This document shows positions 10,853-55,320 of a DNA stretch of 64,000 nt, piece after piece. The notes beneath the pieces were generated by a model that was not told where the DNA came from, ran no database searches, and saw only the letters and a list, made by a program, of their open reading frames with translations. The translations under genes were made by a program, and so were the position numbers. The stretch lies in contig NZ_LT607733.1 of assembly GCF_900091445.1 (NCBI RefSeq), positions 3,860,501-3,924,500 of the forward strand, read 5' to 3'. Each line of letters starts with the position of its first letter. Within the stretch, counting starts at the first letter, position 1. This DNA is from Micromonospora echinofusca (GTDB lineage: Bacteria; Actinomycetota; Actinomycetes; Mycobacteriales; Micromonosporaceae).

Positions 10853-10874
10853 GGTCGTACGCGCGGCGGGCCCG

Positions 10875-13796: not shown

Positions 13797-13801
13797 CTGG
13801 T

Positions 13802-38203: not shown

Positions 38204-38325
38204 GCGCATCTCCTTCGACACCGGAGCGTGGTCCGATGCGGGGGCCGACGATGGTGGGTGGAGCGTGCTGTCCTTCCTACGCTCGTGAATGAATCTCGGC
38301 AAGAGGGTCGATACGACTGGCCACC

Positions 38326-39406: not shown

Positions 39407-39439
39407 GGAGGCGCCTGAGCGAGGTGCCCAAGCGCCTCC
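39407..39439 (-). terminator. Terminator after the precursor-peptide genes
   Basis: GGAGGCGC pairs with GCGCCTCC, and further pairs follow inside the loop, 8 bp beyond the last peptide stop. Its arm CCCAAGCGCCTCCTG is identical over 15 nt to an arm of the terminator at 60,682-60,719. Confidence 0.7.
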
Positions 39440-39446: not shown

Positions 39447-39539
39447 TTACTGGCAGGCCATCGGGCCGCCGACGACATCGTCCAGCTCGTCGTCGGCCAT
39501 CTCACGGATGTCGACAGCCTCGAAAGTCACCTCGATCAT
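39447..39539 (-). CDS. Mini precursor peptide A, double-glycine leader with core PMACQ
   Basis: A 30-codon gene: ATG 39539, stop TAA 39449-39447. The leader begins MIEVTFEAVDIREMAD and ends DDELDDVVGG, the acidic helix plus Gly-Gly typical of peptides cleaved by C39 peptidases. Only five residues, PMACQ, follow. GGGGAGGGGG lies 9 nt before the ATG. It is the last cistron before a terminator and follows, in the same direction, an operon with a C39-peptidase exporter. Near-identity with peptide B at DNA and protein level across the leader, against a divergent core, is the signature of a duplicated RiPP precursor. Confidence 0.8.
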   Translation of the reverse strand: MIEVTFEAVDIREMADDELDDVVGGPMACQ

Positions 39540-39718
39540 GTTGGTTCACCCCCTCCCCGCATCATCGGTCACTGCACCCGACCAGATGGTCGGACGAATC
39601 ACATGCAGCGGGCCGCGCCCACCACATCGTCCAGCTCCTCGTCGGCCATCTCACGGATGTCGACAGCCTCGAAAGTAACCTCGGTCATGTTGGTTCACCC
39701 CTTTCCGCATCATCGGTC
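39466..39718 (-). repeat. Tandem duplication carrying the two precursor genes (period 149 bp)
   Basis: Two copies, about 39,466-39,570 and 39,617-39,718, share the untranslated stretch GATGATGCGG, then GGGGTGAACCAACATGA, and the leader-coding sequence with few mismatches and one indel upstream of the starts. Homology stops at the Gly-Gly/Gly-Ala boundary, so cores and spacers differ. Start-to-start distance is 149 bp. Confidence 0.85.
39599..39688 (-). CDS. Mini precursor peptide B, GA-type leader with core ARCM
   Basis: A 29-codon gene: ATG 39688, stop TGA 39601-39599. The leader (MTEVTFEAVDIREMAD then EELDDVVGA) differs from peptide A at only a few residues and ends in Gly-Ala, an accepted C39 cleavage variant. 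The predicted core is ARCM, or AARCM if cleavage follows the Gly. Both peptides place Cys at the penultimate position. AAAGGGG lies 9-10 nt upstream within a leader sequence shared with peptide A. Codon choice is less GC-biased than in neighbouring enzymes. Confidence 0.8.
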   Translation of the reverse strand: MTEVTFEAVDIREMADEELDDVVGAARCM

Positions 39719-39835
39719 CTTGTCCACCCGACGGGTTCGATCCGCAAGCCGTGGCGGCGGACTCAAGTCCACAGGTTCCACACGGATCGACAGCCCTTCC
39801 ATAGCGGGCTGGGGGCCATAGGATACCTCCGTCAT
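39710..39835 (-). CDS. Possible 41-residue ORF upstream of the precursor genes
   Basis: ATG 39835 opens a 41-codon frame beginning MTEVSYGPQPAMEGL, with a start resembling peptide B (MTEV). It has no leader motif and no ribosome-binding site, its third-position G/C is weak, and its stop falls in the repeated upstream sequence of peptide B. It could be a decayed third precursor or chance. It overlaps a better-initiated 18-codon frame. Confidence 0.25.
   Translation of the reverse strand: MTEVSYGPQPAMEGLSIRVEPVDLSPPPRLADRTRRVDKDR
39763..39819 (-). CDS. Possible 18-residue Trp-rich peptide
   Basis: GGAGG stands 6 nt before ATG 39819, which opens MAPSPLWKGCRSVWNLWT and then a stop. Three of 18 residues are Trp. 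It sits between the E2 gene and the precursor peptides and could be a regulatory leader peptide, a third product precursor, or chance. Its ribosome-binding site is better than that of the overlapping 41-codon frame. Confidence 0.35.
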   Translation of the reverse strand: MAPSPLWKGCRSVWNLWT

Positions 39836-39889: not shown

Positions 39890-40963
39890 TCAACCGGCCT
39901 CCAGATCGGCCTTGACCGCGCGCAGGAACGCCACCGCCGACCGACCGTTGACAAAACGATGGTCGTATGCCAAACCCAGGTGGAAATAGTCACTGGTGGT
40001 GACCGAGCCATCATTCTGAAGCACCAACTCGCGCTGCATCGAGGCGAGAGAGACCGCGCATGTGTGTTCCGGGAAGATGAGCGGCTGCGCATGCACGACG
40101 TCCGCGTCCGTATGTATCGTGAGCGCGATGTTCGACCCGGCCAGATCCGCCTCGGCGAATTCCCCGCGCACGGCGGCGCGACGGAACCGCAACAGGTCGG
40201 CGGCGACGTCCCGCAGCGGCCGGGTGTCGGCGTCGGCGACGACCGGCAGGTAGAGGCCCCTCCCGACGTCGATGGTGACACCGACGTGCGCTCCCGGCAG
40301 AACCGTCGCCGCCTGATCGCCCTCCGCTCGCGCGAAGCACAGCGGGAACTCCGCCCGCCGCGCCGCGATCGCCTCGACCACCAGCTCCGGGATGCCGACG
40401 AAGCCGATGGTCGCCGCCTCGGCACGCAGGCGTTGTTTCAGTCGATCGGCGACCACCTTGACGACCGTGTACGCGGCGGGGATCTCGCGGTGCGAGGTGG
40501 ACACCGTACGGGCGACCCGTCGTTGGGCCGCGGACACGGTCACCCGCTCGGCCGTGGCCGGCGGCGCCTGCCCGGCGACCAGCTGTTCGATGTCCGACCG
40601 CGCGATGACCGGCTTGCCGATCGACCGTACGTCCGCCTCCGCCACACCGTGTTCAGCCATCAGCCGCCGGGCCGGCTCGGTGATGGTGATCGGATCCGGA
40701 TCGGAAGCCTGCCGCACCGGCGGCGGGCGGTCGTCCCCGCCGACGGTCGCCACCATCTCCCCGGGGCGGCAGGTCGACGGTGCGGACGTCCGCTGCCACA
40801 GGATGCCGGCGTCGTCCGCGACGAGTTCGTGCGCCGCCTTGGAGGTCTCCACCAGAGCTACCGCGGTGCCCGCCTCGACCGGCGCCCCGTCGCCGACCAG
40901 CCACTCGATCAGCGTGTACTCCTCGTCGGTCGCGTTGAGCCGCGGCAGCCGGATGTCACCCAC
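39890..40963 (-). CDS. 2-oxoacid dehydrogenase E2-like acyltransferase with one lipoyl domain
   Basis: A 357-residue protein. Residues 1-75 form a lipoyl domain with Lys42 in VETSKAAHELV. An E3-binding-like segment (ITEPARRLMAEHGVAEADV) follows, then the catalytic domain ending in YDHRFVNGRSA, where the usual DHRxxDG His is present but the following Asp is Asn. It overlaps E1-beta by 8 bp. With E1-alpha and E1-beta it can turn a 2-oxoacid into an acyl-CoA or possibly acyl-carrier-protein. No E3 is nearby; the housekeeping enzyme could serve. Confidence 0.9.
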   Translation of the reverse strand: MGDIRLPRLNATDEEYTLIEWLVGDGAPVEAGTAVALVETSKAAHELVADDAGILWQRTSAPSTCRPGEMVATVGGDDRPPPVRQASDPDPITITEPARRLMAEHGVAEADVRSIGKPVIARSDIEQLVAGQAPPATAERVTVSAAQRRVARTVSTSHREIPAAYTVVKVVADRLKQRLRAEAATIGFVGIPELVVEAIAARRAEFPLCFARAEGDQAATVLPGAHVGVTIDVGRGLYLPVVADADTRPLRDVAADLLRFRRAAVRGEFAEADLAGSNIALTIHTDADVVHAQPLIFPEHTCAVSLASMQRELVLQNDGSVTTSDYFHLGLAYDHRFVNGRSAVAFLRAVKADLEAG

Positions 40964-41978
40964 CGGCGACCGCCGTCACCACGGCGCGGATGTCGTCCGC
41001 CTGGACCAGCACCGCACGCTCGAGGTGGGGTGCGGCGGGGATCGTGCTCGGCGGCGCGTGGAGCAGCCGGACGGGCTGGGACAGCAGGTCCCACATCTGC
41101 TGGTGGATGGTGTGAGCCACCTCGGCCCCCCACGTGCCGCCGGCCGTCGCGTCCTCGACGACCACCACCCGTCCGGCCCCGGCGACCAGAGCAGCCAGCG
41201 GCGCGGGATCGAACGGATAGAGCCGCGACGGCACCACCGCACGCACCGCGATCTCGTCACTCAGATAGGCACCCCGCATCCCGCCGAGCACCCTGTCGGT
41301 GAGGCCGCCCGGTGCGATGACCACGACGTCGGCCCGGTCGACCCCGCGCACGCCCAACACGGCGAAGTCGCAGGCGCCACCGATCCGCTCGCAGTGGAAC
41401 AGCTCGTCTCCGGCCGCCGCGCCGAACCGTCGACGGCCGTAGAGCACCTTGTCCTCGAAGTACATCGCGGGAGCCCCCGAGTCGAGGATGCGGGCCAGTG
41501 TGGCGTGCGCGTCGTGCACCGGGCTCAGCTCGTGCACGGCGAGGTTGGGCACGCCCACGAAGTGCTTCTGCAGGCTCTGGCTGTGGGTGGGCCCGTATCC
41601 GCGGTTGCCCCCCGTCGGGCACCGGATCACCAGCGGCATCCGCACCGGTTCGCCGTACATCGTGACGGCCTTGCTGGCCAGGTTGACGATCTGGTCGAAG
41701 CACAGGGTGGCGAAGTCGGAGAACATCACCTCGACCACCGCCTCCCGGCCCCGCAGGGCCAGGCCGACCGCGAAGCCCACGATCGCCTGCTCGCTGATCG
41801 GAGTGCTGAGGACCCGTTCGGGATACCCGGTGGACAGCCCGCGGGTGACGCCGAAGGCGCCGCCGTACGGATCGGCCATGTCCTCGCCGATCAGATGGAG
41901 ATCCGGCCTCTCCGCGAGCAGGGTCGCCAGGGCACGGTTGAGGCCCTCCCCGACCCGCTCGGCCCCCGGCTCAGCCAT
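40956..41978 (-). CDS. 2-oxoacid dehydrogenase E1-beta in the biosynthetic operon
   Basis: A 340-residue E1-beta/transketolase-C protein (LIGEDMADPYGGAFGVTRG, STPISEQAIVGFAVG, GPTHSQSLQKHFVGVPN). It overlaps E1-alpha and E2 by 8 bp on each side, so the three subunits are translated together. It is clearly divergent from the E1-beta at 21,055-22,035, not a recent copy. Confidence 0.92.
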   Translation of the reverse strand: MAEPGAERVGEGLNRALATLLAERPDLHLIGEDMADPYGGAFGVTRGLSTGYPERVLSTPISEQAIVGFAVGLALRGREAVVEVMFSDFATLCFDQIVNLASKAVTMYGEPVRMPLVIRCPTGGNRGYGPTHSQSLQKHFVGVPNLAVHELSPVHDAHATLARILDSGAPAMYFEDKVLYGRRRFGAAAGDELFHCERIGGACDFAVLGVRGVDRADVVVIAPGGLTDRVLGGMRGAYLSDEIAVRAVVPSRLYPFDPAPLAALVAGAGRVVVVEDATAGGTWGAEVAHTIHQQMWDLLSQPVRLLHAPPSTIPAAPHLERAVLVQADDIRAVVTAVAGG

Positions 41979-42879
41979 GACCGGCGCCGATCAGCGGTCG
42001 GGCGAGTACCGACTCGACCACGTCGCGGATCTTCCCGGTCGCCGCCGCGTCCAGGCGGTCGACCTGCTCCGGGAATGCCGCGCGGTAGTGCGGGTACCAG
42101 TCACGCCCGGCGAGGGCCTCGAGCTCCGCCGGCGTGCGGGTGTCGTCGCCCTTGCTGTGCGGGCCGAGCCGCACCGTGTCGAACTCGACCACCAACGGAG
42201 ACCCGTCGTGACGTACGGCGGCGACGAGCGGCGCCAGGCTGGCCCGGATGGCGTCGACGTCGATGCCGGTCACCTCGACGTGGCGGATGCCGAAGGCGGC
42301 ACAGCGGTCGGCGACGCTACCGGCCATCTGTGCCGAGGTCGGGGTGGACTGGGCGATCCCGTTGTGTTCGACGACGACGACCATCGGCACCCGCCAGAGC
42401 GCGGCGAGGTTGAGCGCCTCGTACACCACCCCCTCGCCCCAGGTGCCGTCCCCGACGTACACCACGGAGATCGAGTTCGTTCCGGTGCGCCGCATGTCGA
42501 AGGCGGTGCCCACCGCGACCGGCACCAGTTGCCCCTGGATGCCGGTGGACATGAAGCCCGGGCGGCGGATGTGCTGCGAACCGCCCATCCCGCCGCACAA
42601 CGCGCCCTCACGGCCGGCGAGCTCGGCGAGCAGCCCCGCCGGATCGTCGTACCGCGCCAGGAAGTGGCCGTGTCCCCGGTGGTTGCTGAACACCTCGTCG
42701 TCGGGGCACAGCAGGGACTCGACCACGACCGGAACGTACTCCTGGCCGAGGCAGGTGTGGCTGGTGCCCGGGATCAGTCCCCGGCCGAGCAGGTCGAGGA
42801 CCGCGTACTCGAAGCGTCGGATGGACAGCATCGCCCCGAGGGTGGAGTCGGCCAGCGGGCGCAGCCGGCTCTCACGCAT
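41971..42879 (-). CDS. 2-oxoacid dehydrogenase E1-alpha in the biosynthetic operon
   Basis: A 302-residue thiamine-diphosphate subunit: GDGTWGEGVVYEALNLAALW then VVVEHN is the cofactor motif and NHRGHGHFLARYDDPAG precedes it. ATG 42879 overlaps the end of the adenylation gene by 8 bp, which supports that start over longer in-frame ones. It probably supplies an acyl unit for the pathway. Confidence 0.92.
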   Translation of the reverse strand: MRESRLRPLADSTLGAMLSIRRFEYAVLDLLGRGLIPGTSHTCLGQEYVPVVVESLLCPDDEVFSNHRGHGHFLARYDDPAGLLAELAGREGALCGGMGGSQHIRRPGFMSTGIQGQLVPVAVGTAFDMRRTGTNSISVVYVGDGTWGEGVVYEALNLAALWRVPMVVVVEHNGIAQSTPTSAQMAGSVADRCAAFGIRHVEVTGIDVDAIRASLAPLVAAVRHDGSPLVVEFDTVRLGPHSKGDDTRTPAELEALAGRDWYPHYRAAFPEQVDRLDAAATGKIRDVVESVLARPLIGAGHG

Positions 42880-44374
42880 GGGTGACCTGTCCGCCGGCCA
42901 CGAGGTCACGGGCCCGCGCGGCGAGCACCCCACGGTCGATCTTGCCGTTCGCCGTGTGCGGGAACGCGTCGATGTCGCGGCACAGCAGCGGAACCATGTA
43001 TCCCGGCAGGATCGAGGACATCGGGCGACGGATGTCCACGCCCGGCGTGCCGACGTAGAACACCGCCAGCTCCGTCCGCCCGGCCGCCTCGAACGCCACC
43101 GCGACGGCCCGTTCCACCCCCGGCAACTGCCCGACGTGCCACTCCAGCTCGTCCAGCTCGACCCGGTAGCCGCGGACCTTCACCTGCCGGTCGACCCGAC
43201 CGAGATAGACGAGTTCACCGCCGGCGCACTCCCGGACCCGGTCGCCGGTGCGGTACCAGCGCACCGAGTCGCCGTCGTGGAAGCGGCCCTCGTCGTCGGC
43301 CGGATCGAGATACCCGGGGAACATCTGCTGCCCGGTCACGCACAGCTCGCCCTCGGTGCCATCGACGCCGTCCTCGACGATGCGGTATCCGAGATGCGGG
43401 TACGGCGCGCCGATGGGGACGACGCCGTGCACGGCGAGGTCGGCGGAGTCCTCGGACAACCGGTGCGCGGAGCAGGCGATGGTCAGCTCGGTCGGGCCGT
43501 ACAGGTTCTCCACCACCGATCCGGCCGCCGCCCGCTGCCAGTCCTCGGCATCCGTCATGCGCAGCGCCTCACCGCAGAAGAGGCTCCACCGCAGCGTCGG
43601 CATCGAGCCGGGAGTCAGCCCACCCCGGCGCCGCACCAGAGCGATGGCGCTGGGCACGGAGAACCAGAACGTCACCCGCTCGGCGGCCAGGAACTCCGGC
43701 AGCGCGGTGAACACCTGCGGCGGTGTGGACACCACGGTGGCACCGGCGCCCCAGGCCACGAAGAGGTCGAACATCGCCAGGTCGAAGGTCTGGTCGAAGG
43801 TCTGCGAGCACACGTCGCCCGGGCCGAGGTCGTAACGGTCGAGGTTGTACCGCAGGAAGCTGTCCATGTTGGCGTGCGTGATCGCCGCGCCCTTGGGCCG
43901 GCCGGTGGAGCCAGAGGTGAACAGCACGTACGCCACGTCGTCGTAGCCGGCCCGGGGCAGGGCGTCCAGCGGCGTCGTGGCCTGCGCCGCCACGGCGAGG
44001 CCGGGCAGGGCCGCCGTGAGGTGCGCAAGCGCCGCCGTCCCCGACCGGTCGACGATCAGCGTGTCGACGCCGGCCTGCGCCGCCATCCGGCAGGTACGCG
44101 CGGCGGGGAAGCCCGGGCTGAGCGGCACCGCCGTCGCGCCGGCGTAGAGCGTGGCGAGGAGCCCGGCGTACGACTCGATGCTGCGCACCGCGAGGATGCC
44201 GACGCTCCGCGCCCCGCACGCGACCAGCCCGCCGGCCCAGCGCCGGGCCACCTGGTCCAGCTCCGTGTACGTCCACTCCTGGCGACCGATCCGCAGCGCG
44301 ACCCGGTCCGGCGCCGTCGCCAGGCCGGCGATGAACCACTCGTGCAGCAGACGTCGTGGCAGCTGACCGGTCAC
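42872..44374 (-). CDS. Free-standing amino-acid adenylation protein
   Basis: A 500-residue NRPS-type adenylation enzyme without fused carrier. Core motifs: FTSGSTGRPKGA (A3), TFDQTFDLAMFDLF (A4, with the Asp expected to bind the substrate amino group), NLYGPTE (A5), GELCVTGQQMFPGYL (A6), YRTGDRV (A7) and NGKIDRG with the A10 Lys. GTG 44374 overlaps the diiron oxygenase stop by 4 bp. It probably loads an amino acid onto the small carrier protein two genes upstream. Specificity is not predicted. Confidence 0.9.
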   Translation of the reverse strand: MTGQLPRRLLHEWFIAGLATAPDRVALRIGRQEWTYTELDQVARRWAGGLVACGARSVGILAVRSIESYAGLLATLYAGATAVPLSPGFPAARTCRMAAQAGVDTLIVDRSGTAALAHLTAALPGLAVAAQATTPLDALPRAGYDDVAYVLFTSGSTGRPKGAAITHANMDSFLRYNLDRYDLGPGDVCSQTFDQTFDLAMFDLFVAWGAGATVVSTPPQVFTALPEFLAAERVTFWFSVPSAIALVRRRGGLTPGSMPTLRWSLFCGEALRMTDAEDWQRAAAGSVVENLYGPTELTIACSAHRLSEDSADLAVHGVVPIGAPYPHLGYRIVEDGVDGTEGELCVTGQQMFPGYLDPADDEGRFHDGDSVRWYRTGDRVRECAGGELVYLGRVDRQVKVRGYRVELDELEWHVGQLPGVERAVAVAFEAAGRTELAVFYVGTPGVDIRRPMSSILPGYMVPLLCRDIDAFPHTANGKIDRGVLAARARDLVAGGQVTHA

Positions 44375-45282
44375 CAGGCCACCGTGTCTTCCGTGAAGAG
44401 CCCCAACCGGTCGAAGAAGCGGGTGGTCTTGTGCATCACGGTCCGATGGAACTCCTGACGGTACTGGTCGCCGAGCACCTCGGCGCGGACCCGCCTGGCC
44501 TCGGGAAGGGCGGCGTCCGCGTACACCTCGGGGTGGTAGAACGCCCGCAGGCACGAGCTGACGTAGCGGGACAGGTACGTCCCGGCTCCCGCCATCTCCT
44601 CCGGCGTCGCGCTCTGCTTCGCCTCCTCGTACAGCGCCCGCATCATCTGCCGACCGAAGGCGATGTGTCGCGACTCGTCCTGGTGGTGGACGGCGTTGAT
44701 CTGCTGCGCGATGTGCGGCAGCCGGCCGTCGGTCGCCATCTTCGCGTTGTAGTAGTCGCACAGCTCCTCCGCGATGAGGATGCGACCGAAGATGACGAGG
44801 TCACGGATGGCGGGGCCACCCTCGATCGCGGTGCCGGCGACGCGCTTGGTCTTGTAGACCTTCCCCCCGTACCGCTGGCAGAACTGGGCGAAGAACCACA
44901 TGTGTTCGTTCTCTTCGTGGATGAAGTCGTGGAAGAACTCCGACAGGCCCGGGTACCGCGTGTCGTAGATCCGCCCGGCCACCTCGCCGATCAGCTCGCG
45001 GATGAGGTGGACGTTGAGACTGAAGAAGTTCACCGCCTCGGCCTGGGTCAGGCGCACCCGTTCGGCATCCGACAGGCGGTCCCACACCGCGGTGCCGTAG
45101 CACGTCGTCAACTCCGGGCTCATCCAGAACTGGTCCGTCGGCAGTTCCGCCGGCCAGTCGAAGATGTCGAAGACGTGGTAGCGCTGGTCCCGCGCCTGGT
45201 CGCTCAACCTGGCGGCGACCGTGGTGAGCCGCTCCCACGACTGGTGCATGTCCGCGTGTCTCTCCTCGACGGGGCCGGTCAC
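44371..45282 (-). CDS. AurF-like diiron oxygenase
   Basis: A 303-residue all-helical ferritin-like oxygenase. Iron ligands are suggested by FIHEENEHMWFF, AEELCDYYNAKM and HHQDESRHIAFG, the last matching the DExxH pattern of AurF/CmlI N-oxygenases. Such enzymes oxidise amines to hydroxylamines, nitroso or nitro groups; PvfB/MgoB-type relatives act on amino acids bound to carriers. The GTG start overlaps the carrier-protein stop (GTGA); ATG 45249 is an alternative. Context suggests N-oxidation of a carrier-bound amino acid. Confidence 0.85.
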   Translation of the reverse strand: MTGPVEERHADMHQSWERLTTVAARLSDQARDQRYHVFDIFDWPAELPTDQFWMSPELTTCYGTAVWDRLSDAERVRLTQAEAVNFFSLNVHLIRELIGEVAGRIYDTRYPGLSEFFHDFIHEENEHMWFFAQFCQRYGGKVYKTKRVAGTAIEGGPAIRDLVIFGRILIAEELCDYYNAKMATDGRLPHIAQQINAVHHQDESRHIAFGRQMMRALYEEAKQSATPEEMAGAGTYLSRYVSSCLRAFYHPEVYADAALPEARRVRAEVLGDQYRQEFHRTVMHKTTRFFDRLGLFTEDTVAW

Positions 45283-45521
45283 ATCAGACTCCTGACCGCG
45301 TTCCAGATGGTGCCCGGAGTCGCGAAGACCTCCGGCTGCAACAGCTCGGGTGGGATCTCGATGTCGAACTCGGTCTCCAGGTTGACGATCAACTCGACCA
45401 CTTCCAGCGAGTCGACACCGAGCTCGGTCAGGCTCTGGTCAGGTTCCAGGGGCGAGTCGGCACTGAGCAGCCGACTGCGCTCCCGAATGAGTGGTTCAAA
45501 GGCGGGTGGCCAATCCACCAT
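45279..45521 (-). CDS. Acyl/peptidyl carrier protein 1
   Basis: An 80-residue four-helix carrier. LGVDSLEVVEL contains Ser38, the phosphopantetheine site. ATG 45521 follows GGGAGGG and lies 1 bp after the stop of the transglutaminase-like gene, which excludes the longer in-frame start. It sits between the oxygenase and that enzyme and is the likely partner of the adenylation protein. Confidence 0.92.
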   Translation of the reverse strand: MVDWPPAFEPLIRERSRLLSADSPLEPDQSLTELGVDSLEVVELIVNLETEFDIEIPPELLQPEVFATPGTIWNAVRSLM

Positions 45522-45522
45522 G

Positions 45523-46434
45523 TCACCCTCCCGTGTCGCGGTAGGTTGGGAATCTCGCGAAAACCGGCTGACCGGCATGCGTCACCAGGTCGCGCCAGCT
45601 GGGTCCGACGCGGCCGAGAATGGCACCGAGCGAGCGGTCGCGCTGCCACTCTGGCCCGGCCATGCCCCACTGCCCAAGGGCGTCCAGGAGCACCGGGTCG
45701 ACCGGGACCCAGACCCCGTCGACCTGGAACTCCGCCCACGAGTGCGATGCGGAGATCGGTGGGGTCAGCGACCTGCCGAAGGAGAACCGGGCGGTCAGTC
45801 CCCGCCTGCGGGCCTCCTCGACCAGCAGGTGGGCCACGCCGACGCAGTCGCCGATCCCGGTGTCACGGACGAAGGCGCTGTCGGCGCGCAACGTCTCCGG
45901 CAGCCAGAGGAACCGGATGTGCCGGGTCTCCGCCAGCAGGTCGAGCACCGCGGTCGGCAGTTCCGGCCAGGTCCGCGGCCGGTCGAACGTCACCGAGTGC
46001 AGCACGCCGCCCCGGTTCTGTACCGACGTCGTCTCGTGCCAGGCGTCGTCCGGCACCGCGAGGCGCCACCGGCACGGCTCGTCGTGCCCGGGCTCCGGGC
46101 ACTGCGCCACGTAGTCCATCCGGTAGCGGGCGTGGGCGGTCGGGCGCCCCAGCTCGCGGATCCACCAGGAGAGGACCTTGCGCCCGCGCGAGCGCGGGTC
46201 CAGGTGCACCGAGACGTTGCGCAGGTCGGTGGCGTCGAACAGGAGGCCGTCCGCGCCGGCCGCCGAGGGCAGACCGGCGGCGACGAGGACGTCGAGGCCC
46301 GGCCCGTCGATCTGGTACTCGGCGGCGGCCGTGGCGGCGTCCATCTCGAAGCGCCGATGCGAGTGCGGCACCTGCAGGATCAGCGGCAGCAGGGCGTCGA
46401 GCGCCTGCCGGTCGAGCCAACGCTCGGCTGTCAC
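45523..46434 (-). CDS. Transglutaminase-like cysteine enzyme
   Basis: A 303-residue protein with a transglutaminase/arylamine-acetyltransferase-like core. Cys197 in DTGIGDCVGVAHLLVEEARR, His231 in SASHSWAEFQ and Asp246 in VWVPVDPV form a plausible triad. The first 190 residues contain a module rich in aromatic residues that I do not recognise. It overlaps the ABC exporter stop (GTGA). AdmF of andrimid biosynthesis is a transglutaminase homologue that joins carrier-bound units, so amide formation from a thioester is the leading hypothesis; a protease role is the alternative. Confidence 0.82.
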   Translation of the reverse strand: MTAERWLDRQALDALLPLILQVPHSHRRFEMDAATAAAEYQIDGPGLDVLVAAGLPSAAGADGLLFDATDLRNVSVHLDPRSRGRKVLSWWIRELGRPTAHARYRMDYVAQCPEPGHDEPCRWRLAVPDDAWHETTSVQNRGGVLHSVTFDRPRTWPELPTAVLDLLAETRHIRFLWLPETLRADSAFVRDTGIGDCVGVAHLLVEEARRRGLTARFSFGRSLTPPISASHSWAEFQVDGVWVPVDPVLLDALGQWGMAGPEWQRDRSLGAILGRVGPSWRDLVTHAGQPVFARFPTYRDTGG

Positions 46435-48809
46435 GAGGCACCTCCCACGAGGCGCCGGTACAGACCGTCCTCGGCCATCAGGTCCTCGTGGCGGCCACGC
46501 TGGACGAGCCTGCCGTCGCTCATGACGAGGATCTGGTCGGCGGCCTCGGGATGGGAGAGGCGGTGGGCGACGACCACCAGCGAGCGCCCGGTCCGGCGCA
46601 GGTTGGCCATGATGCGGTCCTCCGTGAGCCGGTCGAGGGCGCTGGTCGCCTCGTCGAGGATCAGCAGCTCGGAGTTCCGCAGCAGGGCCCGCGCCAGGGA
46701 GATGCGTTGGATCTGCCCACCGGACAGGCCCGCCCCGGAACTGCCGAGCAGCGTCTCGTACCGCATCGGCATCGCGTCGATGTCGTCGTGGACCTCGGCC
46801 AGCCGGGCAGCGGCGATGACGTCCTCCAGGGAGCACTCCGGCCGGCCGAGCGCGATGTTCTCCCGGATGGTTCCGCCGAACAGCCGGGCGTCCTGCCGGA
46901 CGTACGCCATCGACCGCCGCGCGGCCGGCCGGTCCAGCTGATCCGTCGGCGTGCCGTCGAGGGACACCGTGCCGGCGCTGGGCAGGTAGAGCCCCGCCAG
47001 CAGCATGGCGAGCGTCGACTTGCCGGAGCCGGACTCACCGAGGATGAGAGTGAACTGCCCGGGCTCGATCTGTGCGTTGACGTCCACGAGCGCCGGCGTC
47101 CGCGCGCCCGGATAGGCGAACCGCACGTCGTCGAGCGTGATGGCGCCGGTGACGCGGGACGGCACCACCGCGTCCGGGCCGGCTTCCGGTCGCGCGTCCA
47201 GGATGTCGGCGAGCCGGGTCAACGTGGCCCTCAGGCCGGCGACCTCCAGCCCGGTCTGCACCAGACTCGCCAGCGGTACGAACATTCCCATGGCCAGGGC
47301 GGAGAAGCCCACCACCCGGGACAGGGAGATCTCGCCGCGACCGAGCAGGACCAGACCGGCGGCGAGCACGGCGAGCGGAGCGAGGAACTGGATCGCGGTG
47401 CTGACGGCCTCGCACACGCCGAGGAACCGCCGGCTGCGGGTCCTGGCGTTCACCTCGGCGACGAACGTGTGGCTCCAGGTCTCCGCCGCGGCGCCCTCCA
47501 GCCCGGAGGCCTTCAGCGTCGGCACGCTGTCCAGCAACTGGAACAGCTCGGTGTGGCTCTTCGCCTGCGCCTCCAACAACGCCGCGGTCAGGTATTCCTG
47601 CTTGCGCCAGCTGAACGCGAGCAGAGCGAGCTGGGCGACGGCGAGGGTGAGCACCAGCGCGCCGAGACGCCGGTCCGCGACGACGATGAGCCCGCCGTAC
47701 ACGAGCACCAGCACCCCGTCGAGCACGGCCGACAGCGCGGATCCCGTCAGGATCTGACGGACCGCGTTGCTGGTGCGGACCCGCATGGAGAGGTCGCCGG
47801 TGTGGCGCTGGGCGAAGTAGTCGAACGGCAGGGCGACGAGGTGGTGGACCGCTCCGAGGGTCACCGACTTGTCGGCGAGGGTCTGCACGGACAGCAGGGC
47901 CAGCCGACGGACGGTCTGCATCCAGAAGTACATCGCGAACAGCACGACCGCCGCCCCGAACAGCAGCCAGGCGCTGACCGGTTCGCCGGGCTGGCCCGCC
48001 CGGTGCACGACGTAGGTGGAGGCGGCCGGCACCGCCAGGCCGCACAGGGTCAGCGCGACCGAGGTCAGCGCGAGGGGAACCCAGGCGGCCGTACGCGGGA
48101 AGAACTTCGACAGGTACGGCAGGCGGCTCGCGCCGAGGTTCCGGGCGTCGGCCCCTCGCCGCGACGTCGTGGCGCCGACCGGTGGATGGAACTCCAGCGC
48201 CACACCGGTGAACGCCTTGCCGGCCTCGGCCAGGCTGACCTTACGCCGGCCGAAGGCCGGATCGACGATGTACAGGTGGGTGTCGGTCACCCGCTCCAAC
48301 ACGACGAAGTGGATGAAGTTCCAGAAGAGGATGGTCGCCGGGGGGAGGTTGCGCAGCCCTTCGATGGAGACCCGGACTCCGCGCGCGACCAGGCCGCGCC
48401 GCCGCGCGGCAGCGAGCATCGCGCGGGCCGCGACCCCGTCCCGGCCCGTGTTGGTCTCGGTGCGCAACTCGTCGAGGGGGACCGGTTGACCGAAGTAGGC
48501 GAGGACCATCGCCAGCGCGGCGGCCCCACACTCGCTCATCTGCGACTGGAGCACGACCGGAACCCGGGTGCGCGAGACCCGCAGCGCGGCCCGCACGTTG
48601 CGCCACCGCAGGCTGCGCAACGCGGCCAGGCCGGGTAGCGCCCGCCAGCCGAGCTCCACCGCGTCGCCCGCCTCCCGGTTGACGCCGTGGTGACGCAACG
48701 CCTCGCGCCGGAAGCGCTGCCGTCGGTCGGTGAACTCCGTCGGTAGGCTCGTCGCCTCCGGCGGCCGGGGGGCCTGTTCCGCCTGCCCGGTCTTGTCCAG
48801 CGTGCTCAT
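46431..48809 (-). CDS. C39-peptidase-containing ABC exporter (PCAT)
   Basis: A 792-residue bifunctional transporter. After an unusual N-terminal extension of about 80 residues, a C39 domain shows Cys94 in QSQMSECGAAALAM, His167 in FIHFVVLERV and Asp183 in IVDPAFGRRK. Six transmembrane helices and an ATPase follow (GESGSGKSTLAMLLAG Walker A, LSGGQIQRISLARALL signature, ILDEATSALD Walker B). PCATs cut leaders after Gly-Gly or Gly-Ala and export the core. ATG 48809 overlaps the SDR stop. The tandem precursors at 39,447-39,688 are its obvious substrates. Confidence 0.95.
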   Translation of the reverse strand: MSTLDKTGQAEQAPRPPEATSLPTEFTDRRQRFRREALRHHGVNREAGDAVELGWRALPGLAALRSLRWRNVRAALRVSRTRVPVVLQSQMSECGAAALAMVLAYFGQPVPLDELRTETNTGRDGVAARAMLAAARRRGLVARGVRVSIEGLRNLPPATILFWNFIHFVVLERVTDTHLYIVDPAFGRRKVSLAEAGKAFTGVALEFHPPVGATTSRRGADARNLGASRLPYLSKFFPRTAAWVPLALTSVALTLCGLAVPAASTYVVHRAGQPGEPVSAWLLFGAAVVLFAMYFWMQTVRRLALLSVQTLADKSVTLGAVHHLVALPFDYFAQRHTGDLSMRVRTSNAVRQILTGSALSAVLDGVLVLVYGGLIVVADRRLGALVLTLAVAQLALLAFSWRKQEYLTAALLEAQAKSHTELFQLLDSVPTLKASGLEGAAAETWSHTFVAEVNARTRSRRFLGVCEAVSTAIQFLAPLAVLAAGLVLLGRGEISLSRVVGFSALAMGMFVPLASLVQTGLEVAGLRATLTRLADILDARPEAGPDAVVPSRVTGAITLDDVRFAYPGARTPALVDVNAQIEPGQFTLILGESGSGKSTLAMLLAGLYLPSAGTVSLDGTPTDQLDRPAARRSMAYVRQDARLFGGTIRENIALGRPECSLEDVIAAARLAEVHDDIDAMPMRYETLLGSSGAGLSGGQIQRISLARALLRNSELLILDEATSALDRLTEDRIMANLRRTGRSLVVVAHRLSHPEAADQILVMSDGRLVQRGRHEDLMAEDGLYRRLVGGAS

Positions 48810-49534
48810 CCGCCGCTGCCCGAGTCGACCCGGAGCACCTGCGCGGTGATGGCCTCCGCGGCGGGTGAGAGCAGGAACTCGACCGACCGCGCCACGTCGG
48901 CGACGGTGGCGGCCCGGTTGAGCATGTTCCGTCGATTGATCGCGGCGCGGAGGCCGTCCTCGATCGATGCGGTCATGGCGGTGTCGATGAAGCCCGGAGC
49001 GACGCAGTTGACCGTGATGCCCCGGCTGCCGACCTCGGCGGCGAGCACCCTCGAGAACCCTTCCAGAGCGCACTTGGTCGCGGTGTACGCGCCGAGCCCA
49101 CGGAAGGTCCGATGGGCCGCGATCGAGGTGATGTTGACGATGCGTCCGCCACGGCGGTACATCGCCTTGACCGCCGCCTGGGACAGGGACATCGGGACCT
49201 CGACGTTGAGCTGCCACATCCGGGTCATGTCCGACCGTGCGGCGGCCACGTGCAGAGCCGCGCTCGCCACCCCCGCGTTGTTGACGAGACCGTGGAGATC
49301 GGCGCGCTCCCGGAGCCGGTTGGCCACCGCGAGCCGATCGTCGCCGCTGGTGAGGTCGGCGGCGAGGAACGTCAGCGGGTCACCGACGGACTCCCGCAGG
49401 GCCGCGAACTCGCTGGGAGCGGTCCGTGCCACGGCGACCACCCGGTAACCGACGGTCAGCAGCTGCCGGGTGACAGCCAGTCCGATGCCCCGGGTACCGC
49501 CGGTGACGAACACCGTCCCGAGCGCCTCACTCAC
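48806..49534 (-). CDS. FabG-like short-chain dehydrogenase
   Basis: A 242-residue classical SDR: VTGGTRGIGLAV for NADP(H), VNNAGVA, an active-site ITSIAAHRTF Ser and YTATK. The GTG at 49534 overlaps the ligase stop by 8 bp. Its resemblance to 3-oxoacyl-ACP reductases fits action on a carrier-bound beta-keto intermediate, although no ketosynthase is in the window. Confidence 0.92.
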   Translation of the reverse strand: MSEALGTVFVTGGTRGIGLAVTRQLLTVGYRVVAVARTAPSEFAALRESVGDPLTFLAADLTSGDDRLAVANRLRERADLHGLVNNAGVASAALHVAAARSDMTRMWQLNVEVPMSLSQAAVKAMYRRGGRIVNITSIAAHRTFRGLGAYTATKCALEGFSRVLAAEVGSRGITVNCVAPGFIDTAMTASIEDGLRAAINRRNMLNRAATVADVARSVEFLLSPAAEAITAQVLRVDSGSGG

Positions 49535-50726
49535 CGCGGGCCGCCTTTCCGGACGGTGCCGTCGGAAGCTGGTCGACGACGGTGACGCGACGCGGTTGTT
49601 CCGCCGGGGCCAGTACGCGGCGGGCATGGGCCTTGACCCGCTGCACGACCAGGTCACGGTCGGCGCCCGGCGGCGTGACGACGTCGGCGCCGACGACGGC
49701 GCCGAGCACGCTGCTGCGCACCGGGTAGACGCGGACCGCGACGACGTCCGGGAGTTCCCGCAGCAGCCGGGCCACGTGGCCGGGCACGACCTTCACCCCA
49801 CCCACGTTGATGACCTCGCCGCGTCGCCCGAGGATGTGCAGGCGCCCACCGTGGATCGCCGCCTCGTCCCCCGTCGGCAGGTACGGTGCGCCGGGCGCCG
49901 GGGACAGGAGCAGCTCGCCGTCACGCACCGTCAGCGCCTTCCCGGTCGGCCCGTACCCGTCGAGGACGGAGAGCGGCAGGCCCGGCAGCCCGTCGGAGAC
50001 GGTGGCGATCCGGCCCAGCTCGGTGCTGGCGTAGAACTGCAGGACGCGTTGCGGCGCGAACGCCGACTCGATCAGCCGTAGCAGCTGGGCGTCCACCGGC
50101 TCGCCGCCCATCGAGACGGTGTGCACCTGCGGTCGGGCCTCGTCGGTCCCCCGGTGCAGCGCCGCCATCCGCCAGAACGACGGGGTGCCGGCGACGACGT
50201 CGTAGCGTGCGCCCGTCCCGACGGCCAGGTCGGTCGGGGTGAGGAAGTCGATGCTGGCAGCCCGGCCCAACGCCTGGCTCACGGCCTCCACCCCGGCGTA
50301 GGTGAAGGGTGCGTAGCCGATCCCCCACCTCTCGTCACGGTGCGCGGTGTCCCAGTCGGCGCCGCGGGTCAGCTCCGGCCAGGGCCAGTAGGTCGGGGTC
50401 GGGGTACCCGTGGTGCCCGACGAGAAGATCCACAGCCCGCCCTGCCCTGCGCCGGAGGGCCGGCTGCCCTCCTCGGTGGGCTGGATCCGCCCGCTCGCGA
50501 CGTTCAGCACGGCCTGCGGGCGCAGCTCCGCCAGCGCCGACGCGGTGACGGTCGGACCCACCACGACCACGGACGCGTCGAGCGGGCGGAGCGCACGCAG
50601 TGCGACCACGAGATCCGGCCCGGAGGCCACCTCGACCGCGAGGTGGCGCAGGCCGGTCGCCGCGACCGCCTCTCGCAGCCGGACGATCCGCTGCGCCAGC
50701 GGATCGGCATGGATAGTCACGGGCAT
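49527..50726 (-). CDS. Short AMP-dependent acyl ligase
   Basis: A 399-residue adenylate-forming enzyme, about 100 residues shorter than usual at the N-terminus. WIFSSGTTGTPTP is the P-loop, VLQFYASTELGRI the A5 region, YLPTGDEA and GRRGEVINVGGVKVVP the hinge, and APSGKAARGE holds the catalytic Lys. It starts 3 bp after the second carrier gene, its likely acceptor. The short N-domain suggests a small or aromatic acid substrate. Confidence 0.87.
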   Translation of the reverse strand: MPVTIHADPLAQRIVRLREAVAATGLRHLAVEVASGPDLVVALRALRPLDASVVVVGPTVTASALAELRPQAVLNVASGRIQPTEEGSRPSGAGQGGLWIFSSGTTGTPTPTYWPWPELTRGADWDTAHRDERWGIGYAPFTYAGVEAVSQALGRAASIDFLTPTDLAVGTGARYDVVAGTPSFWRMAALHRGTDEARPQVHTVSMGGEPVDAQLLRLIESAFAPQRVLQFYASTELGRIATVSDGLPGLPLSVLDGYGPTGKALTVRDGELLLSPAPGAPYLPTGDEAAIHGGRLHILGRRGEVINVGGVKVVPGHVARLLRELPDVVAVRVYPVRSSVLGAVVGADVVTPPGADRDLVVQRVKAHARRVLAPAEQPRRVTVVDQLPTAPSGKAARGE

Positions 50727-50998: not shown

Positions 50999-52663
50999 TC
51001 AACCAACTCCATCCATGAATAGCTCCTCGGACCGTTCGACGGCGGCGGTGTCGGACACCACCGCGATGCGCACCGGGACCGCCAGGAACGGCCGGCCGGC
51101 GACGTGGGAACGGACGTGGCTCGCGAGATCGTCCGCCGTGACTCCGGCGTCGGCGGTCGTCACCTCGGCGGCGAGCCGCGATCCGCCGTCCTCGGCGACC
51201 TCCACCGAGACCCTGGCGGAGGCGACCGCGGGGTGCGAGTCGAGGACCGAGGTCACCTCGGCCAGGTCGACGACCAGCACGACCGCACCGTCGGGTGCGC
51301 GAAGTGGCGTGAGCCCGGGGCCGCTCTCCGTCGCCGGCGCGGCGCTGGCCGGGTCGTCTCCGGCCAGCAGTGCGCGGAAGGCGGCGACGAACCTGGTGAA
51401 GGTGGCCTGCGACATGGTCTCGCCGTCGACGGTCAGTCGGACGCCCAGCCCGTTGGGCCGCTCGTTCGCGGCGATCCGCAGGCCGTCGGCGGTCCTGACC
51501 AACGTCGGGGTGTACGCGCCGCGCTCGATGGCGATCGCATCGCCGTCGGCGTCGTCGCGGTCGGCGGTGTCCTCCAGGTACGTCATCGACAGGGTGTCGT
51601 GGACCGGACGGCCCAGGCGCCGGACCGCCGTCGCCCACATGTCGTCCAACGCCTGCCGCGTGACGGTGCGGCGCGAGGTCGCCGACAACAGCTCCCGCCG
51701 CACCTGCACCAGCAGGTCGGCGGGCCGGTCCGGCCGGTCCAGCACGACCGGCACGACGACGTCGAACATGCCGACGACGCCCTGGTCGGCGTGACGCCTG
51801 CCGTTCAGCTTCATCGAGACGACGAGGCGGTCCTGCGGCGTCAGCTGGAACGCGGCGGCCGCGAACAACGTGAGGAGCCACTGGACGGTGCTGAAGCCGG
51901 CGGCCTGCCAGCGCTCGCGCACGTCCTTCCACTCGTCCTCGACCAGGGTCAGCAGCTCGGTGTGGGCGACGGTCGCGGACGGCCCGCCGAGCCCCGGAAG
52001 GAACTGGCACCGGGGCGGCAGCCACGGGCCACGCTGCCGCCAGTACGCGGACACCGCCTGGGCGCGCGCCGAGTCGGCGGCGGCGGCCTGGCCGGTCACC
52101 GCGGCGAGGTAGTCGGCGTCCACGGGGTCGGCGTCGGTCCCGCCGCCGAAGTAGGCGCCCCACAGGTCGCGTACGACGATCATCCGCGCGGTGGCGTCAA
52201 CGGCGTAGTTGGAGAACACCCCGAGCACGGCGTGCAGAGTCGGAGTGAACCGCAGCAACCGCAGCACGAACGGGTACTCGACCGCGAGGTCGAAGGGGCG
52301 CCGGATGTCCGCCGCGAGGACGGAGCGCACGTAGCGGGTGAACTGCTCGGTGTCGTTCGCCGTGACCTGGGTCGTCGCCACGAGCCGGCGATCGTCGGGC
52401 ATCGGCCGGACCCACTGGACAGGTTCACCGTCGAGCGTCGTGACACCGATCCGCAGCGCCGCGTGCCGGGCGACCGTCGAGCGCACCGCGCCGACGAATG
52501 CGGCGACGTCCAGCGGGCCGGTGACCTGGTAGGACATCCAGACTGCCACGCCCTGCTCTGCCGTCCCCGACAGGGCGCGGTGGTGCGCGAGCTGGCCCGG
52601 CAGCAGGGGATGGACAGCGGTGTCGAGATCGACCGCCTCAAGGCGGGTGGGTCGCGACGACAT
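50999..52663 (-). CDS. Condensation-domain-like protein with degenerate active site and C-terminal ligase subdomain
   Basis: A 554-residue protein. Residues about 15-430 follow the NRPS condensation fold (LLPGQLAHHRAL, DGEPVQWVRPM, VVSMKLNGRRHADQGVVGMF). At the HHxxxDG position it reads FSNYAVDAT, so the catalytic second His is Asn and the Gly is Ala. Residues about 445-554 look like the small C-terminal subdomain of an adenylating enzyme (VLDSHPAVASARVSVEV, VPVRIAVVS) but lack the GK lysine. It may be a structural or docking partner, or use another catalytic residue. Confidence 0.82.
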   Translation of the reverse strand: MSSRPTRLEAVDLDTAVHPLLPGQLAHHRALSGTAEQGVAVWMSYQVTGPLDVAAFVGAVRSTVARHAALRIGVTTLDGEPVQWVRPMPDDRRLVATTQVTANDTEQFTRYVRSVLAADIRRPFDLAVEYPFVLRLLRFTPTLHAVLGVFSNYAVDATARMIVVRDLWGAYFGGGTDADPVDADYLAAVTGQAAAADSARAQAVSAYWRQRGPWLPPRCQFLPGLGGPSATVAHTELLTLVEDEWKDVRERWQAAGFSTVQWLLTLFAAAAFQLTPQDRLVVSMKLNGRRHADQGVVGMFDVVVPVVLDRPDRPADLLVQVRRELLSATSRRTVTRQALDDMWATAVRRLGRPVHDTLSMTYLEDTADRDDADGDAIAIERGAYTPTLVRTADGLRIAANERPNGLGVRLTVDGETMSQATFTRFVAAFRALLAGDDPASAAPATESGPGLTPLRAPDGAVVLVVDLAEVTSVLDSHPAVASARVSVEVAEDGGSRLAAEVTTADAGVTADDLASHVRSHVAGRPFLAVPVRIAVVSDTAAVERSEELFMDGVG

Positions 52664-52743: not shown

Positions 52744-54258
52744 TCAAGGAATCCGCACTTGAACGGGGGTCGGCGGTGGGTGCGAACGCGCGATCGCCCG
52801 GATCTGTTGACGGTCCACCTTCCCGTGCGGGGTGAGCGGCAGCGCGTGGACCGCGACGCAACGCTCCGGCGTCTTGGCCGGTTCGAGGCGGCGCGCCAGC
52901 TCCGCCAGCACGTCGTTCTCCGGCAGGACGGTGGCCACCACGACGGTGAGCGGGTTCGCCTCGTCCGGCGCGACGGCGGCGGCCCCGTCGACGCCGTCGA
53001 TGTCCATGGCCGCCGCCTCGATCTCGGCGATGCTCGACCGCACGCCCCGGTGCTTGAAGACGTCATCGCCGCGACCATGCAGATACAGGTGGCCGTCGAC
53101 GTCCAGGTGGCCGCGGTCGCCCGTGTGCAGCCGCCGGCCAGCCGCGGTCGCCCGGAAGGTGGCGGCGCTCAGCTGCCGGTCGCGCCAGTATCCGGCCATG
53201 ACGTTCGCGCCCTCGACGACGACCTCGCCGACGTCGCCGGCGGGTAGCGGTCGACCCTGACGGTCGACGACCCGCACGACGGTGCCCGGGATCGCGCGCC
53301 CGACGGACCCTGGGCGTTCCAGGTCGCCGTCCGGCTCCAGGATCGTGGCTCGCTTGCATTCGGTCAGGCCGTACATCTGCACCACGGCCGCGCCCGGGAA
53401 CGCGTCCCGCAGCCCGTCTGCGAGCCGTGGCGACATCCGGGCGCCGGTGTTCGTGAACATCCGGACCGGCTGCGGCACCGGGAGCGCCGTCCTGGCCGCC
53501 AGCCGGAGCAGCGCGGTGGCGATCTCCGGCACGACGGGCACGACGGTGGCCCCCGCGCTGGTGATCCGTTCGAGGAGGGCGATCCCCTCCCCTGCCTCGA
53601 GCGCCTCCCACCGCGAGCCCGCAGCCGTGGCGAGCAGGAGCTGGTAGAGCCCGTAGTCGAACGAGGGCGGCACGCAGGAGAGCACGACGTCGTCCGGCCG
53701 GTAGCCGAGGACCTGTCCGATCGCCCGGGTCGCGAAGAGGACGCTGTCGTGCGGACAGACCACCCCCTTGGGCCGCGCGCTGCTGCCCGACGTGTACATC
53801 AGGAGGGCGGGCGCCTCCAGGCCACCGTCGGCACGGCGGGCATCGGTCTGGTCCGCGTCCCCGACCGGCGCGTCGAGCGTCTCCAGGATCTCCCGGAACT
53901 GTCCCGACGACCAGGTGCGGGCGGACACCTCGACGGCTGCGGGGTCGATCCCCACCACGAGGGCTGGTTCGATGTCAGCGAGTACCGCCCGAAGTTGGAA
54001 CGGACGCATCATGGCCGACAGCGGCGCCAGCGTCAGGTCCGCGTACGACGCCGCGAACAGGATCGCGGCGAAGCCGGCGCCGCCGGACCGCACGGCGATC
54101 CGGTCCCCCGGCAGCAGGCCCAGTGCGCGGAACCGACCGGCCAGGTTGACGCTTCGCTGCCGGAGTTCCTGGTAGCTCCACCGGTGACTCCGGTCGACGA
54201 CCGCGGTGCGCTGGGGATGCCGTCGCGCGGCGGTGTCCAGCAGGGTGTGGATCCGCAT
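52744..54258 (-). CDS. AMP-dependent acyl/amino-acid ligase
   Basis: A 504-residue complete adenylating enzyme: LMYTSGSSARPKGVV P-loop, QMYGLTECKR (A5), GEVVVEGANVMAGYW (A6), HTGDRGHLD (A7), HGRGDDVFKHRG hinge and PHGKVDRQ with the catalytic Lys. The Cys after TE in A5 is uncommon. It is the second gene of the minus-strand array, 36 bp after the regulator stop, and is followed by an 80-bp gap before the condensation-like gene. Confidence 0.9.
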   Translation of the reverse strand: MRIHTLLDTAARRHPQRTAVVDRSHRWSYQELRQRSVNLAGRFRALGLLPGDRIAVRSGGAGFAAILFAASYADLTLAPLSAMMRPFQLRAVLADIEPALVVGIDPAAVEVSARTWSSGQFREILETLDAPVGDADQTDARRADGGLEAPALLMYTSGSSARPKGVVCPHDSVLFATRAIGQVLGYRPDDVVLSCVPPSFDYGLYQLLLATAAGSRWEALEAGEGIALLERITSAGATVVPVVPEIATALLRLAARTALPVPQPVRMFTNTGARMSPRLADGLRDAFPGAAVVQMYGLTECKRATILEPDGDLERPGSVGRAIPGTVVRVVDRQGRPLPAGDVGEVVVEGANVMAGYWRDRQLSAATFRATAAGRRLHTGDRGHLDVDGHLYLHGRGDDVFKHRGVRSSIAEIEAAAMDIDGVDGAAAVAPDEANPLTVVVATVLPENDVLAELARRLEPAKTPERCVAVHALPLTPHGKVDRQQIRAIARSHPPPTPVQVRIP

Positions 54259-54294: not shown

Positions 54295-55320
54295 TCAACG
54301 CCCGACCGTCCGGTGCCGTCTGCGCTCCTCGGGCAGCATCTGGCTGAATTGGTACCAGCCCCCCGCGCAGGCCTGGGCGACGACACGAAGCGACTCGTGG
54401 CAGTGCGCGGGAACGTTGCCAGCGGTGTTCGACGACTGCGAGATGAAGGCGAGCGTCCCGGTGAGCAGCCGGAGCAGGGCCTTGCCGTGGTCCGTGTAGC
54501 GCAGCGCGGGATCCTGGCGGAGCCGCTCCAGCTGCAGTCGGATGTTGGCGGCGAGCTCCTGGTCAGTCGCCGGCAGCCCGTCGGGGGACGAGACGGCTGC
54601 CAACTCGGCGAGCGGCGGTGCCGGGGCCTTCTGCCCGGCCGGGACGCAGGCGCCGCCGCCGAGCGCCTTGCGGCGGACGTCGAAGGCCGTCCCGACCGAG
54701 ATGCCTGACCGGCGCGCCACCTCGCGCAGGCTGGCATCGGGCTCGCGACGCACGATCGCCTCGGCCAACCGCCGGCCCTCTTCTGTCGAGACCGGGTGCC
54801 GGCGCCCGTCCCGGCCGATCCGGACGTCCTGGTGGTGGCCCGTGTCCAGGGATCGCCGCCGCAGGCCGGCGACGGTCTTGGCGGCGACGCCGCACACCGC
54901 CGCTATCCGGCGGTCGGACCACTGGGGGTGCGAGGCGAGGATCCGCTTGGCAGCGGCCAGCCGGTCCCGGGCGCTCAGCGGCAGGCCGTGCTCGAGGTTC
55001 AGCTGCACCGCGGCCACGAAGGCGTCCGCGTCGGAGCCGTCGAAGTAGACGACCGGCAACTGGCGGTCACCCCGCACACGCGCGGCCCGTAGCCGGTGCA
55101 TGCCGTCAACCACCCGCAGCGAGGACCGCTGGACGACGATCGGTGGCAGCTCGACGGTCAGCTCGACGAGGGTCGTGACGTGTCTCGCGCTGATCCCGTC
55201 CAGTCTCGGGGAGAAGCCGACCCGCAACGAGCGCACGTCGGCCACGTCGACCTCCGGAGCCGCTGCCTCCCCCGCCTGGGCGGACTGTGCGGTGGAGTCG
55301 CTATCCGGTCGTCTCTTCAT
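54295..55320 (-). CDS. StrR/ParB-type pathway-specific regulator
   Basis: A 341-residue DNA-binding protein. A ParB-like N-terminal fold (VVDGMHRLRAARVRGDRQLP, LNLEHGLPLSARDRLAAAKR) is followed by helix-turn-helix segments (DRRIAAVCGVAAKTVAGLRR; REVARRSGISVGTAFDVRRK). This matches StrR, NovG and related activators of antibiotic clusters. ATG 55320 follows GAGGG. Being first in the minus-strand biosynthetic array, it probably activates it. The C-terminal third is helical and unassigned. Confidence 0.88.
   Translation of the reverse strand: MKRRPDSDSTAQSAQAGEAAAPEVDVADVRSLRVGFSPRLDGISARHVTTLVELTVELPPIVVQRSSLRVVDGMHRLRAARVRGDRQLPVVYFDGSDADAFVAAVQLNLEHGLPLSARDRLAAAKRILASHPQWSDRRIAAVCGVAAKTVAGLRRRSLDTGHHQDVRIGRDGRRHPVSTEEGRRLAEAIVRREPDASLREVARRSGISVGTAFDVRRKALGGGACVPAGQKAPAPPLAELAAVSSPDGLPATDQELAANIRLQLERLRQDPALRYTDHGKALLRLLTGTLAFISQSSNTAGNVPAHCHESLRVVAQACAGGWYQFSQMLPEERRRHRTVGR

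Follow-up and report, generated by a model that had tools for sequence, protein, structure and literature searches.

Two very short genes at the end of a biosynthetic array in Micromonospora echinofusca encode peptides that, as far as sequence conservation can tell, are genuine precursors belonging to a ribosomal peptide family, and the partner exporter of these precursors is very likely the C39 peptidase-ABC protein of the same array. Related precursors recur beside a C39-ABC exporter, a carrier protein (ACP), an adenylating enzyme and a condensation-like (C-like) protein that has lost motif histidines. Our best reading of this association, which we hold with moderate confidence, is that of a RiPP family: a unit bound to the carrier protein would be joined to the short core of the peptide, followed by cleavage after Gly-Gly (GG) or Gly-Ala (GA) and export.

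Two precursor genes and their surroundings

The window, by which we mean the whole 64,000-nucleotide stretch of DNA that was analysed, carries the array on its minus strand, with the genes in the order in which Table 1 lists them.

Table 1. Features of the array in the window, from the regulator to the stem-loop that follows the precursor genes
Feature	Position	Strand	Remarks
HTH/ParB-like regulator	54295..55395	-	first gene of the conserved block
Adenylating enzyme A1	52744..54258	-	
Stand-alone condensation-like protein	50999..52663	-	HHxxxDG -> SNYAVDA
AMP-binding protein	49527..50726	-	partial match
SDR, FabG-like	48806..49657	-	
C39 peptidase-ABC exporter	46431..48812	-	C39 Gln, Cys, His, Asp present
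Transglutaminase (TGase)-like protein	45523..46431	-	Cys/His/Asp kept
Carrier protein	45279..45578	-	phosphopantetheine site DSL present
AurF-like diiron oxygenase	44371..45282	-	ligand motifs present; ACP-AurF-A3 set common to Actinocrispum
Adenylating enzyme A3, amino-acid type	42872..44500	-	
2-oxo acid dehydrogenase E1 alpha (E1a)	41971..42933	-	
E1 beta (E1b)	40956..41978	-	
E2 with lipoyl domain	39890..40963	-	
Precursor 1	39599..39688	-	MTEVTFEAVDIREMADEELDDVVGAARCM = leader MTEVTFEAVDIREMADEELDDVVGA + core ARCM; Gly-Ala boundary
Precursor 2	39447..39539	-	MIEVTFEAVDIREMADDELDDVVGGPMACQ = leader MIEVTFEAVDIREMADDELDDVVGG + core PMACQ; Gly-Gly boundary
Stem-loop, intrinsic-terminator-like, 14-bp stem	39407..39439	-	fold z -6.9; 0/200 shuffles as good

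The two precursor genes are the last of the array, and the stem-loop follows them directly. Their products are 79% identical, sharing 22 of the first 24 residues, and a near-identical purine-rich ribosome-binding block precedes each gene. Both leaders place V at -4, L at -7 and M at -12 before the GG or GA. The two minus-strand frames, their coordinates, their ribosome-binding blocks and the cores ARCM and PMACQ were all found as the original prediction had described them. An orthologue in M. sediminimaris has been deposited as a 'hypothetical protein', and an Rfam scan of the window gave no match.

Among the array proteins, the exporter start (~48812) was placed by homology, the listed ORF (46431-49217) being over-long, and the ORF listed for A3 begins further upstream, at 44761. 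The C-like protein has an AMP-binding_C-like tail, seen by eye and in a weak NCBIfam match. Against PDB sequences, the TGase-like protein had no match at E<=1, and the AurF-like protein matched only weakly, to an R2-like oxidase (best E 0.0017) and to ferritins. The roles of the kept C39 residues, of the TGase Cys/His/Asp and of the AurF ligand motifs in the window proteins are our assumption, as is the resemblance of the regulator to StrR. In a plasmid collection, C39-ABC matches among the best 5000 records were all <60% identical, and searches with two precursors found nothing.

Within the genus, 13 of 160 genomes match the TGase query at E<=1e-10, four of them (own genome included) at an identity of at least 74%, and the three other close loci, in G448, G197 and G474, each repeat the array order. 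In G448 both precursors are present and their peptides are identical to those of the window; a single precursor, MTEVEFEAVDIREMADEELDDIVGG with core PNACQ, occupies the same place in G197 and G474, and the same stem-loop sequence follows it (fold z of the equivalent stem in G197, -5.3). A precursor profile (E<=0.01) matched five of the 160 genomes, namely the four cluster carriers and one genome in which the match lies inside a 339-aa frame and is taken as chance; the four precursor-bearing genomes (4/160) are the four with the close TGase. A search of the own genome (E<=0.001) returned two matches, the precursor genes themselves. By NG86, the PxACQ gene compared with its G197 counterpart gives pS 0.35 and pN 0.10 (Fisher p 0.03 on rounded counts), and the first 25 codons of the ARCM gene compared with the same G197 gene give pS 0.51 and pN 0.08 (p 0.0006). 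Because codon changes favour synonymous sites and matches are rare in the own genome and the genus, these frames exceed what chance would provide.

The original prediction had named beforehand, as evidence that would tell against it, an absence of the leader and of the GG/GA boundary from homologous loci. Both are conserved in related loci, and on this half of its refuting condition the prediction stands; the hydrophobic -4/-7/-12 positions and the GG/GA boundary kept in relatives bear out the assignment to the double-glycine type. Related cores of the PxACQ type (PNACQ, PAACQ, PFACQ) retain leader and Gly-Gly.

The Gly-Ala/ARCM gene could conceivably have arisen by duplication of the PxACQ gene and be in decay, as the 79% identity, the shared ribosome-binding block and our failure to see an ARCM copy in G197 and G474 might suggest. 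We consider such decay quite unlikely: the GAARCM end recurs in the diverged peptide P0019, which the same longest-contig figure (35,014) pairs with the PFACQ peptide P0016; the sole difference between window and G448 in the ARCM gene is synonymous; and GA is accepted by C39 enzymes, according to a review (PMC10885120).

Several neighbouring features deserve mention in their own right. Upstream of precursor 1, an 18-codon Trp-rich frame (39763-39819, minus strand; MAPSPLWKGCRSVWNLWT) is also preceded by a purine-rich block; its DNA is identical in G448, and no conserved peptide was found in G197 or G474. Beyond the stem-loop lies a gene for a CmcI-like methyltransferase (38476-39156) with no match in the 20-kb stretches of G197 and G474, and downstream of the cluster a 710-aa protein without Pfam match is encoded at 36170-38302 on the minus strand.

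A family of short cores and a compact cassette

A first protein search returned 57 relatives at E<=1 (73 candidates), and a profile search 160 at E<=0.001 (1837 candidates). Core statistics refer to the 120 relatives listed among these 160, near-duplicates kept, of which 119 were parsed with a first pattern and 120 with a relaxed one. The cores measure 4-21 residues; the earlier notion that such short cores are exceptional for a C39 system does not hold, very short cores being common across this large family. Some family cores contain Ser/Thr, unlike PMACQ and ARCM. Cys occurs in 35 of the 120, and 33 of these 35 have exactly one, as against 13 expected and a maximum of 23 in 2000 random residue deals in which relatedness was ignored. 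In all 35, the last Cys is found 1-6 residues before the C-terminus (ACQ, RCVM, PACVI, PANCI, ASCVI and others). The remaining 85 of the 120 cores lack Cys, and 73 of these contain Lys, compared with 58 expected and at most 68 in deals that again ignored relatedness. This Cys-less sister group falls among P0022-P0154, with leaders such as VDITALADEELDDVVGG and similar, and occurs in Actinomadura, Streptomyces, Nocardia and metagenomes; its sources include Actinomadura madurae, Actinomadura sp. 3N407/9N407, Streptomyces luteogriseus and Nocardia sp. NPDC059691.

Related loci were sought with a single precursor in 397 genomes of the order and with leader profiles in overlapping draws of 396 genomes of the phylum, 394 of the class and 249 of the Actinocrispum family; further draws comprised 101 and 106 genomes of the G836/G898 genus, 7 of the G1112 genus and 11 chosen ones. 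An AurF search led to Actinocrispum wychmicini, where the leader search gave MLMDDQFDLEVVDIRAMPDEELDDVVGG with core TGTLSLCVTC; this precursor adjoins a C-like gene, the C39-ABC lies ~28 kb away, and an ACP-AurF-A3 set is found near the exporter. Short-frame matches yielded the cores AAGRCVM in G836 and FTVITPNCSAA in G898, while G1112 (Kutzneria sp. CA-103260; protein P0108) has three identical precursor copies with core AFSVDPACVI. G887 has a family precursor, SATVPYGCCIVLDGC, found by its leader (E 1.4e-4, 46-aa frame). G836, G898 and G887 may all be Streptomyces.

Together with the four Micromonospora loci, this makes nine loci with a family precursor, and a C39-ABC exporter, a C-like protein, a carrier and an adenylating enzyme are present at 9/9. 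Partner genes were assigned by Pfam in some cases and by tblastn against known members in others, the G898 carrier by motif and position only. Five of the nine loci (G197, G836, G898, Kutzneria, G887) were found by precursor or leader alone; at the other four, co-occurrence is partly by construction, as they were reached through the window or its TGase or AurF genes. Kutzneria, G898 and G887 share the order precursor-C39ABC-C-ACP-A, with gaps short or none. The G887 leader match came after this order was known, and the cassette was seen only on then fetching the region, which is the cleanest test of the cassette order.

A TGase-like gene was seen in the Micromonospora version of the array alone. 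The original prediction had offered AurF-like and TGase-like genes as markers; tblastn found no match to either in the compact cassettes, and by this measure they are not part of the compact form. The recurring partners are instead the C39-ABC, the degenerate condensation protein, the carrier and the adenylating enzyme, and this recurrence supports what the prediction had said of a C39 exporter as partner and of a link to carrier-protein enzymes.

The same loci bear on another account, in which the peptides are secreted unmodified as signals (pheromones) and induce the adjacent biosynthetic genes, with A, ACP and C making an independent small molecule. The small size of the cores is compatible with this, as are the tandem precursor copies (three identical ones in Kutzneria) and an XRE-TPR regulator directly after the Kutzneria cassette, a regulator type that binds short peptides elsewhere. 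However, the neighbouring regulators differ, being ParB-like in the window, LuxR-type in G836 and XRE-TPR in Kutzneria; even in G887, where little else is recognisable, the precursor is accompanied by the C-like/ACP/A set; and a one-Cys rule is not expected of plain signals. We regard a pure signalling role as unlikely.

Other matches were set aside. G960 (E 0.008), one of six leader- or precursor-found short-frame loci with inspected context, gave no C-like match, has a core of 50 residues and was treated as another kind; at this locus (L057, ~9956-16501) the long double-glycine peptide, with leader VETREIADSELDNISGG, lies beside two C39-ABC matches. The distant TGase-like loci L024-L032 were rejected as relatives, their nine genomes being without a leader match at E<=0.1; of the 11 chosen genomes, two gave a leader match, Actinocrispum and a Verrucosispora sediminis record. 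Within this set, L024-L027 encode distant TGase-like relatives (36-41%) with a conserved CPxPxHxxxC stretch, and several of these loci, in genomes that lack the precursor, have AurF-like and carrier/adenylation matches nearby. Leader matches inside long frames (254-1159 aa) were taken as chance, and two further matches fell in 75-76-aa frames in G560 and G870.

Around the related cassettes we also observed transposase-like frames (by eye) close to the five-gene cassette of G887 (L087:1681-9798), followed after the cassette by a fragment resembling a JmjC protein (by eye), and a JmjC protein (Pfam) beside the Kutzneria cassette (L063:13725-14711). In Actinocrispum wychmicini (L039:2426-15437), the two-Cys precursor comes after a gene for a pyridine-nucleotide-disulphide oxidoreductase that contains the motif CPQC. 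Adjacent to the precursor region is a two-NRPS locus with terminal reductase and a UvrA/ABC-like protein.

Condensation-like proteins and the proposed chemistry

The C39 Gln, Cys, His and Asp are kept in 6/6 aligned domains and are readable in G887 too. The C-like proteins present a different picture. All four that were scanned match Pfam Condensation (E 6e-19 to 5e-26), and a C-like profile matches solved C domains (best E 2.5e-17). In seven C-like proteins the HHxxxDG stretch reads SNYAVDA, SALAVDA, QHVAVDD, SQLAVDG, NNVFFDG, QQVVFDG and QNLVFDS, the first His being lost in 7/7 and the second in 6/7; by comparison, 12 of 13 other C-domain proteins keep both. These 13 ordinary proteins, together with nine close ones (64-99%), make up the 22 returned by a C-protein search in which only the 7992 candidates with the most words in common were scored, and no Actinomadura name was among the 22. 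An AlphaFold2 model of the C-like protein, built on a six-row alignment, had a mean pLDDT of 57. Since the HHxxxDG histidines are lost, ordinary condensation by these proteins is doubtful, and without them the C-like protein may be incapable of amide formation; transfer to a thiol and a purely binding role are possible alternatives. The adenylating enzymes differ in type as well: window A3 has an amino-acid-type FDLAMF stretch, and the corresponding stretch in the compact-cassette enzymes, YHLGTL, is nearer to that of acyl-activating enzymes.

From this inventory we infer acylation of the core as follows. The leader, with its hydrophobic -4, -7 and -12 residues ahead of GG or GA, would be read by the C39-ABC exporter of the array. 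The adenylating enzyme would activate a unit and the carrier protein hold it, and before export this unit would be attached to the short core, its single Cys being the most likely site. Carrier and peptide would be brought together by the condensation-like protein, and the exporter would then cut after GG/GA and secrete a small hybrid; in Micromonospora, AurF-like, TGase-like and E1/E2 enzymes may tailor the unit further. A, carrier and C-like protein persist with the precursor while AurF, TGase, E1/E2 and SDR vary or were not found, which suggests that these three would act on the core, and the near-constant Cys count in the Cys group points to the single Cys as the site, making modification of the Cys itself plausible.

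A related possibility is that the ribosomal peptide serves as the carrier, with a small molecule built on its Cys thiol or C-terminus and then released, as in PEARL. The position of the last Cys close to the C-terminus in all 35 Cys cores would suit such a scheme, the AurF, E1/E2 and TGase genes resemble small-molecule tailoring, and PMC11212132 provides a carrier-peptide precedent. On the other hand, the C39 exporter suggests that the core leaves the cell, and the array proteins scanned include no lantibiotic-dehydratase-like gene; we judge release from the peptide improbable.

Our preferred reading, a unit joined to a core that is itself exported, has observations against it: the C-domain histidine loss, the Cys-less majority (85/120 listed), the differing adenylating types, the ~28 kb between C39-ABC and precursor in Actinocrispum and the lack of a C-like protein in G960. 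More tentatively, and with slightly less than even confidence, we propose a new RiPP class defined by the degenerate condensation domain, in which NRPS-type machinery would work on gene-encoded, leader-chosen cores of 4-21 residues: A and carrier would load an acyl or aminoacyl unit, and the C-like protein would pass it to the one nucleophile of the core, a Cys or, in the sister group, perhaps a Lys.

Relation to known systems and significance

According to a review (PMC10885120), C39 substrates have hydrophobic residues at -4, -7 and -12 and a GG, GA or GS boundary. The precursors of C39 exporters (PCAT), such as those of class II lanthipeptides and class II bacteriocins, likewise combine an acidic leader, the -4/-7/-12 pattern, GG or GA and a partner ABC exporter with kept C39 residues; the family described here differs from them in cores of 4-21 residues. 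The window array proteins scanned gave no Pfam match to LanM, no radical SAM match (the sactipeptide/ranthipeptide criterion) and no lantibiotic-dehydratase-like ligase (the PEARL criterion), and PMACQ and ARCM lack the Ser or Thr that class II lanthipeptides combine with Cys. Pfam and NCBIfam lantibiotic/bacteriocin leader models gave sub-threshold matches only. By leader and exporter, the system looks like a C39-processed RiPP, and by the same kind of sequence evidence it would not be a lanthipeptide, sactipeptide or PEARL.

In PEARL (PMC11212132), carrier peptides are extended by aminoacyl-tRNA ligases; the two systems share a ribosomal peptide combined with further chemistry near the C-terminus, and the present one has a carrier protein, an adenylating enzyme and a C-like protein instead of a lantibiotic-dehydratase-like enzyme. 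With NRPS condensation domains, the C-like proteins share their matches to Pfam Condensation and to solved C domains, yet they are stand-alone, have lost the HHxxxDG histidines and are partnered by a gene-encoded peptide. Biarylitides (PMC13417212) have five-residue ribosomal precursors cross-linked by a P450; they resemble our family in an extremely short gene-encoded product that gene finders easily miss, and differ in that C39 leader and carrier enzymes are found here. Finally, in the naphthyridinomycin/dnacin type, two-component transketolases load a hydroxyethyl (two-carbon) unit onto an ACP (PMC7570522), and the thiamine-enzyme-type genes next to an ACP may offer an analogy, for the Micromonospora E1a/E1b/E2 set only.

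Our literature search, whose scope lay outside most subscription papers and all bioRxiv preprints, found no description of the leader or the cassette, and the data suggest an undescribed way of decorating ribosomal peptides. With the leader motif, a large number of peptide genes become searchable, some of which appear in public databases only as 'hypothetical proteins', and the compact five-gene cassette is small enough for direct expression. The family also poses the question of what a condensation domain does without its histidines. If our reading is true, gene-encoded and easily varied cores would be joined with carrier-protein chemistry by way of a leader of ~25 residues.
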